Positions 1 to 59,540 of a stretch of 64,000 nt of DNA are shown here, piece after piece. The translations under genes and the position numbers were made by a program. The stretch is from Ashinkailepas kermadecensis (lineage: Eukaryota; Arthropoda; Thecostraca; Neolepadidae): positions 248,001 to 312,000 of the forward strand of contig JAOTOM010004737.1 of NCBI GenBank assembly GCA_034440615.1. Reading direction: 5' to 3'. Position 1 is the stretch's first letter, and every line of letters begins with the position of its first letter. The notes beneath the pieces were generated by a model. The model had not been told where the DNA came from. It saw nothing but the letters and a program-made list of their open reading frames with translations, and did no database searches.

Positions 1-3000
1 GTGTATCCAGCCGAGTGGTTCCCTCCACAAGACTGAAGTGTATCCAGCCGAGTGGTTCCCTCCACAAGACTGAAGTGTATCCAGCCGAGTGGTTCCCTCC
101 ACAAGACTGAAGTGTATCCAGCCGAGTGGTTCCCTCCACAAGACTGAAGTGTATCCAGCCGAGTGGTTCCCTCCACAAGACTGAAGTGTATCCAGCCGAG
201 TGGTTCCCTCCACAAGACTGAAGTGTATCCAGCCGAGTGGTTCCCTCCACAAGACTGAAGTGTATCCAGCCGAGTGGTCCCTCCACAAGACTGAAGTGTA
301 TCCAGCCGAGTGGTTCCCTCCACAAGACTGAAGTGTATCCAGCCGAGTGGTTCCCTCCACAAGACTGAAGTGTATCCAGCCGAGTGGTTCCCTCCACAAG
401 ACTGAAGTGTATCCAGCCGAGTGGTTCCCCTCCACAAGACTGAAGTGTATCCAGCCGAGTGGTTCCCTCCACAAGACTGAAGTGTATCCAGCCGAGTGGT
501 TCCCTCCACAAGACTGAAGTGTATCCAGCCGAGTGGTTCCCTCCACAAGACTGAAGTGTATCCAGCCGAGTGGTTCCCTCCACAAGACTGAAGTGTATCC
601 AGCCGAGTGGTTCCCTCCACAAGACTGAAGTGTATCCAGCCGAGTGGTTCCCTCCACAAGACTGAAGTGTATCCAGCCGAGTGGTTCCCTCCACAAGACT
701 GAAGTGTATCCAGCCGAGTGGTTCCCTCCACAAGACTGAAGTGTATCCAGCCGAGTGGTTCCCTCCACAAGACTGAAGTGTATCCAGCCGAGTGGTTCCC
801 TCCACAAGACTGAAGTGTATCCAGCCGAGTGGTTCCCTCCACAAGACTGAAGTGTATCCAGCCGAGTGGTTCCCTCCACAAGACTGAAGTGTATCCAGCC
901 GAGTGGTTCCCTCCACAAGACTGAAGTGTATCCAGCCGAGTGGTTCCCTCCACAAGACTGAAGTGTATCCAGCCGAGTGGTTCCCTCCACAAGACTGAAG
1001 TGTATCCAGCCGAGTGGTTCCCCACAAGACTGAAGTGTATCCAGCCGAGTGGTTCCCTCCACAAGACTGAAGTGTATCCAGCCGAGTGGTTCCCTCCACA
1101 AGACTGAAGTGTATCCAGCCGAGTGGTCCCTCCACAAGACTGAAGTGTATCCAGCCGAGTGGTTCACAAGACTAGTGTATGCAGTGGTCCTCCACAAGAC
1201 TGAAGTGTATCCAGCCAGTGGTTCCCTCCACAAGACTGAAGTGTATCCGCCAGTGGTCCTCCACAAGACTGAAGTGTATCCAGCCATGGTTCCCCACAGA
1301 CTGAAGTGTATCCAGCGAGTGGTTCCCTCCACAAGACTGAAGTGTATCCAGCCGAGTGGTTCCCTCCACAAGACTGAAGTGTATCCAGCCGAGTGGTTCC
1401 TCCACAAGACTGAAGTGTATCCAGCCGAGTGGTTCCCTCCACAAGACTGAAGTGTATCGCGGGCCTCCCAAGACTGAGTGTATCCAGCCAGTGTCCTCCA
1501 CAAGACTGAAGTGTATCCAGCCAGTGGTTCCCTCCACAAGACTGAAGTGTTCCAGCCGAGTGGTTCCTCCACAAGACTGAAGTGTTCCAGCCAGTGGTTC
1601 CTCCACAAGACTGAAGTGTATCCAGCCGAGTGGTTCCCTCCACAAGACTGAAGTGTATCCAGCCGAGTGGTTCCCTCCACAAGACTGAAGTGTATCCAGC
1701 CGAGTGGTTCCTCCACAAGACTGAAGTGTATCCAGCCGAGTGGTTCCCTCCACAAGACTGAAGTGTATCCAGCCGAGTGGTCCCTCCACAAGACTGAAGT
1801 GTATCCAGCCGAGTGGTTCCCTCCACAAGACTGAAGTGTATCCAGCCGAGTGGTTCCTCCACAAGACTGAAGTGTATCCAGCCAGTGGTTCCCTCCACAA
1901 GACTGAAGTGTATCCAGCCGAGTGGTTCCCTCCACAAGACTGAAGTGTATCCAGCCAGGGTTCCCTCCACAAGACTGAAGTGTATCCAGCCGAGTGGTCC
2001 CTCCACAAGACTGAAGTGTATCCAGCCAGTGGTCCTCCACAAGACTGAAGTGTATCCAGCCGAGTGGCCTCCACAAGACTGAAGTGTATCCAGCCGAGTG
2101 GTTCCCTCCACAAGACTGAAGTGTATCCAGCCGAGTGGTTCCCTCCACAAGACTGAAGTGTATCCAGCCGAGTGGTTCCCTCCACAAGACTGAAGTGTAT
2201 CCAGCCGAGTGGTTCCTCCACAAGACTGAAGTGTATCCAGCCGAGTGGTTCCCTCCACAAGACTGAAGTGTATCCAGCCGAGTGGTTCCCTCCACAAGAC
2301 TGAAGTGTATCCAGCCGAGTGGTTCCCTCCACAAGACTGAAGTGTATCCAGCCGAGTGGTTCCTCCACAAGACTGAAGTGTATCCAGCCGAGTGGTTCCC
2401 TCCACAAGACTGAAGTGTATCCAGCCGAGTGGTTCCCTCCACAAGACTGAAGTGTATCCAGCCGAGTGGTTCCCTCCACAAGACTGAAGTGTATCCAGCC
2501 GAGTGGTTCCCTCCACAAGACTGAAGTGTATCCAGCCGAGTGGTTCCCTCCACAAGACTGAAGTGTATCCAGCCGAGTGGTTCCCTCCACAAGACTGAAG
2601 TGTATCCAGCCGAGTGGTTCCCTCCACAAGACTGAAGTGTATCCAGCCGAGTGGTTCCCTCCACAAGACTGAAGTGTATCCAGCCGAGTGGTTCCCTCCA
2701 CAAGACTGAAGTGTATCCAGCCGAGTGGTTCCCTCCACAAGACTGAAGTGTATCCAGCCGAGTGGTTCCCTCCACAAGACTGAAGTGTATCCAGCCGAGT
2801 GGTTCCCTCCACAAGACTGAAGTGTATCCAGCCGAGTGGTTCCCTCCACAAGACTGAAGTGTATCCAGCCGAGTGGTTCCCTCCACAAGACTGAAGTGTA
2901 TCCAGCCGAGTGGTTCCCTCCACAAGACTGAAGTGTATCCAGCCGAGTGGTTCCCTCCACAAGACTGAAGTGTATCCAGCCGAGTGGTTCCCTCCACAAG

Positions 3001-3769
3001 ACTGAAGTGTATCCAGCCGAGTGGTTCCCTCCACAAGACTGAAGTGTATCCAGCCGAGTGGTTCCCTCCACAAGACTGAAGTGTATCCAGCCGAGTGGTT
3101 CCCTCCACAAGACTGAAGTGTATCCAGCCGAGTGGTTCCCTCCACAAGACTGAAGTGTATCCAGCCGAGTGGTTCCCTCCACAAGACTGAAGTGTATCCA
3201 GCCGAGTGGTTCCCTCCACAAGACTGAAGTGTATCCAGCCGAGTGGTTCCCTCCACAAGACTGAAGTGTATCCAGCCGAGTGGTTCCCTCCACAAGACTG
3301 AAGTGTATCCAGCCGAGTGGTTCCCTCCACAAGACTGAAGTGTATCCAGCCGAGTGGTTCCCTCCACAAGACTGAAGTGTATCCAGCCGAGTGGTTCCCT
3401 CCACAAGACTGAAGTGTATCCAGCCGAGTGGTTCCCTCCACAAGACTGAAGTGTATCCAGCCGAGTGGTTCCCTCCACAAGACTGAAGTGTATCCAGCCG
3501 AGTGGTCCCTCCACAAGACTGAAGTGTATCCAGCCGAGTGGTTCCTCCACAAGACTGAAGTGTATCCAGCCGAGTGGTTCCCTCCACAAGACTGAAGTGT
3601 ATCCAGCCGAGTGGTTCCTCCACAAGACTGAAGTGTATCTCCTCCACAAGACTGAAGTGTATCCAGCCGAGTGGTCCCTCCACAAGACTGAAGTGTATCC
3701 AGCCGAGTGGTTCCCTCCACAAGACTGAAGTGTATCCAGCCGAGTGGTTCCCTTCACAAGACTGAAGTG
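1..3769. repeat. 37-bp minisatellite, about 100 copies
   Basis: Head-to-tail copies of a 37-bp unit (GTGTATCCAGCCGAGTGGTT, then CCCTCCACAAGACTGAA). The array runs off the left edge, so its true size is larger. Most units are identical. Units with one- or few-base losses cluster at about 1020-2080 and again at 3500-3660. Because 37 is not a multiple of 3, three units make a 37-residue periodic reading. The - strand unit has no stop codon in any frame, which leaves open frames of about 900 codons that I regard as non-coding. It probably lies in the receptor intron upstream of exon A. Confidence 0.97.
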
Positions 3770-5278: not shown

Positions 5279-5449
5279 ATGTCGTTCGGCGCTTTTTCTC
5301 CAGCACTGAGCGACCGAACGTCGTTTCCGCTCTTCTTCCGGACGTCGCCGCCCGAGTCGGCCCACAACATGGCGCGGTTGGCGTTTGTGACGCACCACAA
5401 GTGGGACTGCGTGGCTACCCTCAGTCAGAACCTGGATATGCATACGCTG
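5279..5449 (+). CDS. GABA-B-R: GABA-B-type receptor, exon A (ligand-binding domain)
   Basis: Encodes 57 residues beginning MSFGAFSPALSDRTSFPLFF, followed by a FRT..PES.HN.AR segment, then AFVTHHKWDCVATLSQN, and ending HTL. The S-P-A-L-S-D/N-R..FP.FFRT..P...HN.AR pattern is the family hallmark of GABA-B ligand-binding domains; its serines lie at the GABA carboxylate contact in R1 subunits. The W-D-C-V-A-T segment matches the GWxxVAT strand. The acceptor is TATCCAACAG at 5269-5278 after a pyrimidine-rich stretch, and the donor is CTG|GTGAGT at 5450. The exon is phase 0 at both ends. The methionine at 5279 is not the protein start, because about 150 residues of domain should precede it. A 28-bp minisatellite starts at the exon end and repeats its last bases and donor. 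Confidence 0.85.
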
Positions 5450-5727
5450 GTGAGTGCACGTGGCTGCCATGACGCTGGTGAGTGCACGCCGTCGTCATGG
5501 CTCTGGTGAGTGCACCTGGTTGCCATGGCGCAGGTGAGTGCACGTCGTTGCCATGACACTGGTGAGTGCACACCGTTCCCATGGCAATGGAAAGCGCACC
5601 TGGTTGCCATGGCACTGGTGAGCGCGCGTGGTTGCCATGGCACTGGTGAGCGCGCGTGGTTGCCATGGCACTGGTGAGCGCGCGTGGTTGCCATGGCACT
5701 GGTGAGCGCGCGTGGTTGCCATGGCAC
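5450..5727 (+). repeat. 28-bp minisatellite built on the exon A splice donor, 10 copies
   Basis: Units start at 5450, 5478, 5506, 5534, 5562, 5590, 5618, 5646, 5674 and 5702. The unit is GTGAGTGCACGTGGTTGCCA followed by TGGCACTG. The first five start GTGAGT, the sixth is GAAAGC, and the last four start GTGAGC. Each is preceded by CTG, CAG or ATG, so nine of ten units carry a good 5' splice-site sequence. The tail of exon A (ATGCATACGCTG) matches the unit end (CCATGACGCTG), so the repeat period reaches into the exon. Confidence 0.93.
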
Positions 5728-12594: not shown

Positions 12595-13270
12595 TCTGCA
12601 GTGGGAGGCCTGCTCAATGATTACTGCTGGGTACTGCCGGGTGATGCCAGGTGATGTCAGGTGATGCCAGGTGATGTCAGTTGATGCCAAGTGATTCCAG
12701 GTGATGCCAGGTGATGTCAGGTGCTGCTGTGAGCTGCTCAGGGCTGCCTTGTCAAGGCAGCCAGGTGCTGTCGAACGGTGGCATATCAGACTTGCCATCC
12801 CTAGATACTGTCAATCTGAAAGGTGTCAGTTGATGCCAAGTGATTCCAGGTGATGCCAGGTGATGTCAGGTGCTGCTGTGAGCTGCTCAGGGCTGCCTTG
12901 TCAAGGCAGCCAGGTGCTGTCGAACGCTGGCATATCAGGCTTGCCATCCCTAGATACTGTCAATCTGAAAGGTGTCAGTTGATGCCAAGTGATTCCAGGT
13001 GATGCCAGGTGATGTCAGGTGCTGCTGTGAGCTGCTCAGGGCTGCCTTGTCAAGGCAGCCAGGTGCTGTCGAACGGTGGCATATCAGGCTTGCCAGCCCT
13101 AGATACTGTCAATCTGAAAGGTGTCAGTTGATGCCAAGTGATTCCAGGTGATGCCAGGTGATGTCAGGTGCTGCTGTGAGCTGCTCAGGGCTGCCTTGTC
13201 AAGGCAGCCAGGTGCTGTCGAACGCTGGCATATCAGGCTTGCCAGCCCTAGATACTGTCAATCTGAAAGC
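12595..13270. repeat. Compound minisatellite: 10-bp units then a 149-bp unit x4
   Basis: 12610-12725 is a decamer array (CCAGGTGATG/TCAGGTGATG). It is followed by four 149-bp units starting at 12676, 12825, 12974 and 13123, each of which contains a short run of the same decamers. Every unit also holds a 21-bp odd palindrome, GGCTGCCTTG-T-CAAGGCAGCC. Copies differ at only a few bases, so the expansion is recent. Confidence 0.93.
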
Positions 13271-18935: not shown

Positions 18936-19852
18936 TGCTTAAAAAGGAGAAGAATAGCTCAATAATCTTCATCTCACGCTGATTATTCCGCCTCCCTCCC
19001 CACGCCAACACTAAAAACCAGGACTCTGTTCATGCGTGACGACAGGAATTTCAACTCCACCACCAACTTCTATGGCGGCAACACCGAGTTGCAAACCGTG
19101 CGATTTGTCGATGCACCCCTGACAGCCAGTGCATCGCTGGCTGTCAGACGATGGTGACGGGCTCTCAGTCGATCTAGGTAAACATTTCTGAGGCATTGTG
19201 TTGCTATTGACATGTCAACAGTTTTGTGGCGATTTATAGTAAGTTTCGCCGTGCCTTGATTAAACTATGCCTCATATTATCGCTTATATAGTAATATATA
19301 TGGAAATATTAGAAGACATTAACCTATTGGATGTCCATTTTCAATGTCAACTCTTGTGATCGTCTCACAAACAGTTCAGGTGTTGTTGATGCAATGGCTT
19401 CATGTTTGGAAGCTGAGATCGACTCACCTCATTTGCATTATGCACCAATGGCACCTGTCAGAGATCAGGGGCTAACGAGGTAGTCTGTAGTCTACATACC
19501 CCCTATCGACCTAACATGGACCAATCCCTCCCCCCCGTGGAGGAACTAATCTGATGATAATGCTTGCAACGTGCAATTGTACAGCTTTCTCGAATTGTGC
19601 AACAGACCATAATTGGCTATCCCAACTTTGCTGGAAGCCGTTCCTCGTGCCTCAGTCTGAGTACACACACGCATACGCTTAGAGGCTCTCACCATCCTCA
19701 TTTGTTGCATTAGTGTGTGCTGCTGGGAAGGAGGACAGCTACCACGGCGGATAAATAGAGGAGTGAGGGGGATATGGCTGCATTAATGCCAAGAAAGACC
19801 GACCCATGGCGGATAATTATAACTCAATAAATGCATGTCTTTGAAATCACAC
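18936..19852. other. Intron B-C, unique part
   Basis: No recognised feature. C-rich runs lie near 18995 and 19530. Confidence 0.4.
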
Positions 19853-20437
19853 ACTCACCCATCAGCTCGCCAGTACAGTAGCCCCCCCACACACACCCAT
19901 CAGCTCACCAGTGCAGCAGTACCCCCCCCACACCCACCCATCAGCTCACCAGTGTAGCAGTACCCCCCGCCCCCCACACACACACACATCAGCTCACCAG
20001 TGCAGTAGCCCCCCCCCCCACACACACACCCATCAGCTCGCCAGTGCAGTGCCCCCCCCCACACACACACACCCATCAGCTCACCAGTGCAGCAGTACCC
20101 CCCCCCCACACACACACCCATCAGCTCGCCAGTGCAGTAGCCCCCCCCCCACACACACACCCATCAGCTCACCAGTGCAGCAGTATCCCCCCCCACACAC
20201 ACACACAACCATCAGCTCACCAGTGTAGCAGTACCCCCACCCCACCCCACACACACACACACAACCATCAGCTCACCAGTGTAGCAGTACCCCCCCCCCC
20301 ACACACACACACATCAGCTCACTAGTGTAGCAGTACCCCCTCCCCCCCACCCCCCACACACACCCATCAGCTCACCAGTGCAGCAGTACCCCCCCCCCCA
20401 CACACACACCCATCAGCTCACCAGTGCAGCAGTCACC
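19853..20437. repeat. About 45-bp minisatellite rich in C-runs and CA repeats
   Basis: About thirteen copies of a unit containing CATCAGCTCACCAGTGCAGC, then AGTAC, a run of 5-10 C, and a short CA tract. Length varies mainly in the C-run and the CA tract, so it combines a minisatellite with internal microsatellites. Base calls in the C-runs are doubtful. Confidence 0.92.
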
Positions 20438-20732
20438 CCCTCATACACACGTGGTTGGTGTGCTTCCCTTCTGCCCGAACATGGACCCCCTGACCGTGGG
20501 TGTTTTTATTATATTAAAGTGGCAAGTGTCCCCTCAATGTTGTCTTTGCCTCTCCCCAATTATTTCGATTTTTAATGTGGGACATTATGGAGTGTGCCCC
20601 CAATTCATTTTGACCCACCCATTGCCTCATGTTCATGCATTGTGACCCTCAATTGTTTTCAGAAATTAACACCCCTCCTCCTGACGTCTTCGACAGGTCA
20701 ACATATGCGGATCTGTGGTTAGGTAATTGCTA

Positions 20733-21532: not shown

Positions 21533-21598
21533 GACCGGGATGTCCGAATCATCGTCGGAAGTTTTTCGCCATCAATTGCAGGACACATATTTTGCGAG
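21533..21598 (+). CDS. GABA-B-R: GABA-B-type receptor, exon C (ligand-binding domain)
   Basis: A 66-bp micro-exon of 22 codons: DRDVRIIVGSFSPSIAGHIF followed by CE. The (T/D)RII(I/V)G.F strand and (I/V)FCE motif are the second-lobe signature of GABA-B subunits. The acceptor is CTTCCTGGCAG|GAC after a long pyrimidine-rich run, and the donor is GAG|GTGAGA at 21599. It is phase 0 at both ends. The residue after GSF is Ser. In GABA-binding R1 subunits this is a Tyr that contacts ligand, so this subunit may not bind GABA in the R1 way (inference). The cysteine of FCE is conserved. It sits between introns of 12.5 and 37.2 kb. Confidence 0.82.
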
Positions 21599-58526: not shown

Positions 58527-58576
58527 CTTTTCCGATATCATCCAAAGTAAGCGTACTTTGGATGATATCGGAAAAG
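58527..58576. repeat. Perfect 23-bp inverted repeat with 4-base loop
   Basis: The left arm is 58527-58549, starting CTTTTCCGATATC and ending AAAGTA. The loop is AGCG at 58550-58553. The right arm, 58554-58576, is the exact reverse complement. A G12 run and a C18 run follow within 100 bp. Confidence 0.95.
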
Positions 58577-58810
58577 TCAGCCCGGGGGGGGGGGGTTAAG
58601 CCCTTCCCCGGACACGCACCGGTGAACTGGTGGACGTCAAGTGTTCCCTTCGCCCCCCCCCCCCCCCCCCCCGCCGCACATTTCGTTATTCATTAGTAGG
58701 ACTCTCTCAGTTTACTGCAACCACTTGGTAGCGGACGTGTCGCCAGACACCGTGTTTGTACTGTGGGGAGCAGACGCAGTTCAGGCGGCATCTGCGCCTC
58801 GATGTTGCAG

Positions 58811-58999
58811 GCCTACCGTCTGGGCATGTACGGGGCGGACTACGTGTGGCTGCTGTACGGCGACACCAGCTCCAGCTGGTGGAGGTCGCCGGTAGGGGGT
58901 GGCTGTCGACCTTCGGAGCTGCGCGCCGCCACCAGGGGACTCCTGCTGGTGGACAGCTTCGCCGAGACGCCGCCAGCGGTGAAGACCGTCTCCGGACTG
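58811..58999 (+). CDS. GABA-B-R: GABA-B-type receptor, exon D (ligand-binding domain)
   Basis: Encodes 63 residues beginning AYRLGMYGADYVWLLYGDTS, then SSWW, a glycine-rich stretch with a conserved-type Cys (GCRPSELRAA), TRGLLLVDSF, and ending VKTVSGL. It continues FCE from exon C into the CEAY+.+.+G..Y.W family motif, the WW motif and the C..+EL..A...L(L/I)V segment. The acceptor is CGATGTTGCAG|GCC. The preferred donor is CTG|GTGGGT at 59000, phase 0 like all other borders, and at the place where family members read (I/V)SGL. A 99-bp tandem repeat begins in the last codons (from 58984) and copies this donor, so a later unit could also serve as donor. The open frame continues through several units, so the exon end carries some doubt. 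Confidence 0.83.
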
Positions 59000-59540
59000 G
59001 TGGGTGTCGGGGACGGGGTGGTGGCGGGAGGGGAGTTGGGGGTGGTGACCCACGGCGGCGAGGGAGCCGGACAAACGGTGGAGACCGTCTCCGGACTGGT
59101 GGGTGTCGGGGACGGGGTGATGGCGGGAGGGGAGTTGGGGGTGGTGACCCACGGCGGCGAGGGAGCCGGACAAACGGTGGAGACCGTCTCCGGACTGGTG
59201 GGTGCCGGGGACGGGGTGATGGCGGGAGGGGAGTTGGGGGTGGTGACCCACGGCGGCGAGGGAGCCGGACAAACGGTGGAGACCGTCTCCGGACTGGTGG
59301 GTGTCGGGGACGGGGTGGTGGCGGGAGGGAGTTGGGGGTGGTGACCCACGGCGGCGAGGGAGCCGGACAAACGGTGGAGACCGTCTCCGGACTGGTGGGT
59401 GTCGGGGACGGGGTGATGGCGGGAGGGGAGTTGGGGGTGGTGACCCACGGCGGCGAGGGAGCCGGACAAACGGTGGAGACCGTCTCCGGACTGGTGGGTG
59501 CCGGGGACGGGGTGGTGGCGGGAGAGGGAGAGGGTGATCG
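58984..59540 (+). repeat. 99-bp minisatellite built on the exon D splice donor, about 5.5 copies
   Basis: Units start at 58984, 59083, 59182, 59281, 59379 and 59478 (one is 98 bp through loss of a G). Each opens GACCGTCTCCGGACTG|GTGG, the same words as the last codons of exon D plus its donor. As 99 equals 33 codons, the exon frame stays open through the first three full units until the 98-bp unit shifts it. Copies differ at only a few bases. Confidence 0.93.

Follow-up and report, generated by a model that had tools for sequence, protein, structure and literature searches.

The window examined in this study, a stretch of 64,000 nucleotides of the Ashinkailepas kermadecensis genome (contig JAOTOM010004737.1, positions 248,001 to 312,000), contained part of a GABA-B-receptor-like gene, one exon of which, termed exon D (E5), ended inside a minisatellite. 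Exon D was 189 nt long and held an open reading frame of 63 residues; it was preceded by TTGCAG and terminated in CTG/GTGGGT (the slash marking the exon-intron boundary), and its phases (0 on both sides) agreed with the facing ends of E4 and E6. Comparison with the PDB matched exon D to structures of GABA-B receptor subunit 2 (9jqx_B, E 1.5e-6; 4f11_A, E 0.0018), and the 4f11 alignment extended through ..KTVSGL of the exon (..KTISGK in 4f11). Searched against 5.8 billion protein sequences, exon D had no match at E 0.01; a Pfam scan covering two frames of 48-63 kb was likewise empty, as were Rfam and ARAGORN. About 235 nt upstream of exon D, the intron contained an inverted repeat with perfect arms of 23 nt around a 4-nt loop (58527-58576), with a run of 12 G (58584-58595) and then a run of 20 C (58653-58672) downstream of it. 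The features at exon D were as follows.

58811..58999, + strand: exon D (E5) of the GABA-B-receptor-like gene, phase 0/phase 0, placed by PDB match, tblastn, splice sites and frame
58977..59530, + strand: 99-bp minisatellite over the 3' end of exon D with six exon-end and donor copies, from TRF and a core-copy search
59000..59005, + strand: authentic 5' splice site GTGGGT of exon D
59099..59104, + strand: decoy donor 2, which would add 33 codons in frame without a stop
59198..59203, + strand: decoy donor 3, which would add 66 codons in frame without a stop
59297..59302, + strand: decoy donor 4, which would add 99 codons in frame without a stop
59395..59400, + strand: decoy donor 5, use of which would read past a stop at 59342
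59494..59499, + strand: decoy donor 6, use of which would read past the same stop at 59342

TRF reported the array with a period of 99, 5.6 copies, 97% matches and a score of 1050. Its core, GACCGTCTCCGGACTGGTGGGT, occurred six times (at 58984, 59083, 59182, 59281, 59379 and 59478, with spacings of 99, 99, 99, 98 and 99), CTG/GTGGGT was identical in all six copies, and the last 23 nt of exon D fell within the array. An earlier note on this DNA had described a 99-bp array that begins in the last codons of exon D and repeats the GTGGGT donor in every unit, and the TRF array with its six copies bore this description out. For the window as a whole, TRF gave 50 rows (overlapping rows counted) with a best score of 6363, compared with a mean of 0.1 rows, a maximum of 1 and a best score of 58 for 20 first-order Markov sequences of the same length and composition. 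The top-scoring array in the window was a 37-bp minisatellite of about 100 copies at 1-3639 (reaching about -72). In favor of an assembly or sequencing artefact, repeats are hard to assemble, and a DNA search of the assembly gave a single match for the locus and hence no second haplotype for comparison. However, the units differed from one another by shared substitutions, one unit measured 98 bp, and similar arrays were found at many loci on many contigs, making an artefact highly improbable.

The next exon located after exon D lay at 83003, giving an intron of about 24 kb. Rogers-type intron gain, in which an exonic AGGT is duplicated in tandem, would, like the present array, involve a tandem duplication at an exon end that includes a donor. 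Introns gained in this way, however, have the duplicate at both bounds, and here the array stood only at the 5' end of the intron; this reading was rejected as very unlikely. A similar relation was found with the intron gain by tandem genomic duplication described, for example, for a potato RdRp gene (PMC4974935): in both cases a tandem duplication copied splice signals, but at exon D no new intron arose and the array occupied one end of a long intron.

The exons of the gene were located by tblastn with human GABBR2 and by splice-site inspection, yielding 12 exons (E1-E6 and E8-E13). In window coordinates these extend from about -26 kb to +114 kb, and two or more stretches of the receptor were not found with this query. 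A Pfam scan of 3.7-18.6 kb matched the receptor domain at E3. Three further features of the gene were relevant to the arrangement at exon D.

5279..5449, + strand: exon E3 of the same gene, directly upstream of the 28-bp array
5447..5727, + strand: 28-bp minisatellite that begins in the last codon of E3; of its nine GTGAG(T/C) donors, one is authentic and eight are decoys
21533..21598, + strand: exon E4 of the same gene, with an array at neither end

Donors lay inside arrays at six of the 12 located exons, with units of 68 bp (E1), 44 bp (E2), 28 bp (E3), 99 bp (E5), 61 bp (E9) and 101 bp (E12). Two of the 10 located acceptors also lay in arrays: that of E6, with a 42-bp unit and 14 upstream decoy acceptors scoring equal or higher, and that of E11, with periods of 24/48/94; the E2 acceptor adjoined an array. 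The acceptor of E9 as set mismatched the phase of E8, and by eye a site 4 nt upstream would fit; an array was present at neither. The note's statement that the 99-bp and 28-bp units are unrelated agreed with an inspection by eye, which revealed little in common beyond CTG/GTG, while its conclusion that the arrangement arose at least twice in one gene proved an understatement: with six donors, two acceptors and one further, adjoining acceptor, the arrangement occurred at least eight times in the gene and was not confined to donors. Two other arrays in the window carried donor-like words: a 43-46-bp array at 19848-20450, the reverse complement of which repeated the donor-like ACTGGTGAGCTG, possibly an exon-end array on the other strand and possibly a matter of chance, and a 149-bp array at 12675-13269, which contained CAGGTGATG and beside which tblastn with human GABBR2 found no receptor exon.

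The frequency of such arrays was determined in the assembly (908 Mb, 4689 contigs) on a sample of 120 exons from three families, namely PF01094 (the ligand-binding family of the receptor itself), PF00063 (myosin) and PF00225 (kinesin), with the exon-D gene excluded. Each splice point was scored as lying inside a TRF array or not, and 110 donors and 116 acceptors from the 120 exons passed the score limits. PF01094 gave 38 matches, 30 of which were cut as loci (8 being without a locus) and 28 used, omitting the exon-D gene itself (L026) and L004, whose calls and arrays were the same as those of L005. Myosin contributed 77 of 78 matches, the first having been dropped as nearly a whole domain in a single open frame, and kinesin contributed 15 short exons, picked by hand on thirteen contigs from the 80 listed among 125 matches. 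L089 and L100 were uncertain. Two PF01094 loci (L003 and L023, C3176:124669-125317) were apparent halves of one receptor exon in different frames, the relative L002 being fully open; an assembly frameshift or a decayed copy seems to account for the split. Two related receptor exons on different contigs (L025 and L028) each carried a 61-bp acceptor-side array; either the array predates the split of the copies or the exons are alleles. A myosin exon (profile 376-436) was present in three neighbouring copies both at C4393:525744-529328 and at C4673:1283675-1287020. Arthropod Mhc genes contain mutually exclusive exons in an arrangement that these triplicated copies resemble.

Splice-boundary arrays recurred across the genome and were not specific to donors. 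They covered 9/110 donors (myosin 5/72, ANF 4/25, kinesin 0/13) and 12/116 acceptors (myosin 7/75, ANF 3/26, kinesin 2/15; 11/116 without L053, whose acceptor call was doubtful, having no AG copies), or about 1 in 11 exon ends of both kinds, and donors and acceptors did not differ (Fisher p 0.65). Three donors reached by an array went uncounted (L132, with an array over the match end and no passing donor, and L101 and L121, with arrays from the first intron base); adding them gave 12/111 donors, still no excess over acceptors. Clear examples included a myosin exon (L067) followed by about 10 repeats of a 39-bp unit and a set of three equal-score acceptors 74 bp apart (L116). Donor arrays other than that of exon D had units of 21-109 bp. 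Points 30-240 nt into the intron lay in arrays in 16-19/110 cases on the donor side and 20-27/116 on the acceptor side (22/114 at 240 nt), so that 15-23% of intron points were covered overall, and coverage had already reached 17/110 and 20/116 at 30 nt; exon points 60 nt inside were covered in 1/110 and 2/116 cases, respectively. Across the 174 kb around the receptor gene (C4240:188001-362000), 93 tandem arrays covered 17.3% of the sequence. The earlier note had called for a test of other genes of this species, and arrays were found across all three families. It had also set a genome-wide test beforehand, in which overlap with 5' splice sites was to be compared with 3' sites and intron positions; in the sample donors stood above neither, and the note had named an overlap no higher than chance as refuting its suggestion.

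Array edges, as distinct from array coverage, were concentrated at exon borders. Array starts fell at -35..+30 nt of donors 16 times against 5.1 expected (3.1-fold, P 8e-5), and acceptor-side edges fell in the same interval 14 times against 5.4 expected (2.6-fold), the expectation being taken from the density 60-240 nt into the intron. The clustering held at each of five thresholds, with P from 8e-6 to 2e-4 at donors and from 1.5e-3 to 4e-3 at acceptors; these P values are optimistic because exons of one gene are not independent. Either exon borders favor the birth of arrays, or selection and deletion push arrays against exons.

The interpretation given in the note was supported in part: the arrangement recurred and array starts were 3.1-fold enriched at donors. 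A link to 5' splice sites in particular, by which R-loops, GT-rich slippage or some other process there would start the tandem duplication, was not supported, as acceptors lay in arrays as often, acceptor edges clustered as well, and donors were covered less than intron points. The six of 12 receptor-gene donors in arrays also speak for a donor-specific process (binomial P 2e-4 against the sample, P 0.009 against 17% coverage), an excess whose weight is limited by the gene having been selected for its donor arrays. The coding strand of the exon-D array was strongly G-rich (294 G, 107 C, skew 0.47) and could form R-loops or G-quadruplexes, and positive skews at E12 (0.33) and E3 (0.18) agreed with the R-loop suggestion; however, E1 (-0.22) and E2 and E9 (both -0.02) did not follow, and in the sample the skew averaged 0.03 over nine donor arrays (-0.19 to 0.25). 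The units were not GT runs. A donor-specific origin thus appeared unlikely.

A process acting at exon edges of both kinds, in which edges are hot spots of minisatellite birth or termination (through recombination or repair bias, for example) beyond mere tolerance, would account for the clustering at both boundaries over the five thresholds and for the coverage already reached 30 nt into the intron. The same pile-up could be produced by selection truncating arrays at the exon or by deletion of the spacer between array and exon; in addition, boundaries were covered less than introns, and exons that belong to one gene or to paralogs do not count as independent. We regard hot spots as a possible but rather doubtful explanation. 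Only tentatively, then, might exon borders be seen as preferred points, about 3-fold at donors and acceptors, where minisatellites begin or end, with splicing picking the exon-proximal of up to 15 near-identical sites; if exon definition picks the proximal site, splicing would therefore tolerate border arrays and exon ends would evolve in concert with the arrays of their introns.

The decoys were generally not weaker than the sites they copied. Among those scored, 36/41 decoy donors equaled or exceeded the authentic donor in strength, from a copy tracker that ended early in E3 and L022 and was out of register at the last exon-D copy, and 29/43 in-register decoy acceptors equaled or exceeded the authentic acceptor. 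Since most of the decoys scored are as strong as the authentic site, position, not motif strength, must often decide. In competition experiments with duplicated splice sites, the choice among identical copies depends on exon context and proximity; the present arrays likewise place several identical sites in cis, but as natural constructs in many genes.

The note had also suggested a selective advantage of extra donors, which would be kept as insurance against donor loss or as regulated alternative 5' sites. The open, in-frame decoys 2-4 of exon D and the identity of the donor in all six copies are consistent with this suggestion, but decoys 5 and 6 lay beyond a stop, and all eight E3 decoys would shift the frame or meet a stop if used. 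Donor conservation gave a divided result. Over all 14 arrays, the donor 9-mer varied less than 9-mers drawn at random from the unit (43 vs 82, P 0.005), whereas 11 clean arrays gave no extra conservation of the donor relative to the remaining unit (32 mismatches against an expected 36.6). The complex arrays E1, L021 and L022 were dropped after the 14-array result was known; the signal was discounted because copies were cut by donor matching and these three arrays drive it, and we judged it to be an effect of copy cutting. Among the best-scoring TRF periods of the sample, multiples of three made up 4/9 at donors and 5/12 at acceptors, and one of the six donor periods of the receptor gene (99) was a multiple of three; these fractions showed no clear frame bias and were near the 1/3 expected if the copies are untranslated. 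Acceptor arrays were equally common, which donor insurance does not explain. Retention of the donors for their usefulness was accordingly considered improbable.

The reading we favor, at a probability of roughly 0.7, is that the exon-D array is a minisatellite of the kind termed a mirage, in which tandem duplications fall over exon ends in a minisatellite-rich genome and the extra sites are intronic passengers. We infer that the array was founded by a tandem duplication whose segment took in the last 23 nt of exon D and 76 nt of intron, after which it would have expanded within the intron while exon D retained the first, authentic donor. The further copies, with their exon pieces and donors, would be intronic and removed with the intron. 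The spliceosome would take the exon-proximal copy because it is the sole copy bordering an exon with an acceptor, as expected under exon definition, and duplications at either exon edge could survive as long as the proximal site is used. Boundary arrays would be general because minisatellites are abundant in this genome (17% of the 174 kb) and edge duplications are tolerated at either end. Against this reading stand the 2.6- to 3.1-fold pile-up of edges at exon boundaries, which uniform founding does not predict, the unusual richness of the receptor gene in donor arrays and the 14-array conservation signal.

Among known systems, the exon-D array was closest to the mirages of amphioxus, minisatellites across exon-intron boundaries in Adh3 and the globins BflGb6 and BflGb9, for which the published account (PMC3087553) gives units of 10-72 bp in Adh3 and 150-160 bp in the globins and regular splicing that, by RT-PCR, was seemingly undisturbed. 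It is of the same kind in a distant phylum, agreeing in all four features compared: tandem units over the exon boundary (58977-59530 over 58999/59000), splice signals within the copies, 5' and 3' boundaries both affected, and unit length within the reported span, the 99-bp unit falling between the two reported size ranges. A further resemblance is that inner copies are alike and edge copies more divergent. Unlike amphioxus, the host is an arthropod and not a cephalochordate, and here the arrays were counted over 120 exons of three families, with as many as 14 in-register decoy acceptors scoring no lower than the authentic one. A muscle myosin exon of the assembly (L071) scored 129-137 bits with its five best PDB sequences, those of insects and a spider, and at most 110.5 bits with the others listed, of which squid, scallop and vertebrates came next; this placed the genome with arthropods and led to the rejection of amphioxus as its source. 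A study of C. elegans minisatellites and alternative splicing (PMC4039745) likewise considers intronic minisatellites alongside splicing. In the titles and abstract openings covered, no splice-boundary arrays in arthropods and no genome-wide count were reported.

Whereas amphioxus mirages were described in single genes in the text covered, the arrangement was repeated here in an arthropod, at both exon ends and with decoys mostly as strong as the authentic sites. Gene prediction in minisatellite-rich genomes may misplace exon ends where such arrays occur. The many natural constructs mean that ordinary RNA-seq would reveal how the spliceosome selects one of several identical sites, and exon D is a good locus for testing this choice because decoys 2-4 are in frame and open and decoys 5-6 are not. 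The arrays also bear on how far repeat turnover extends into coding ends.
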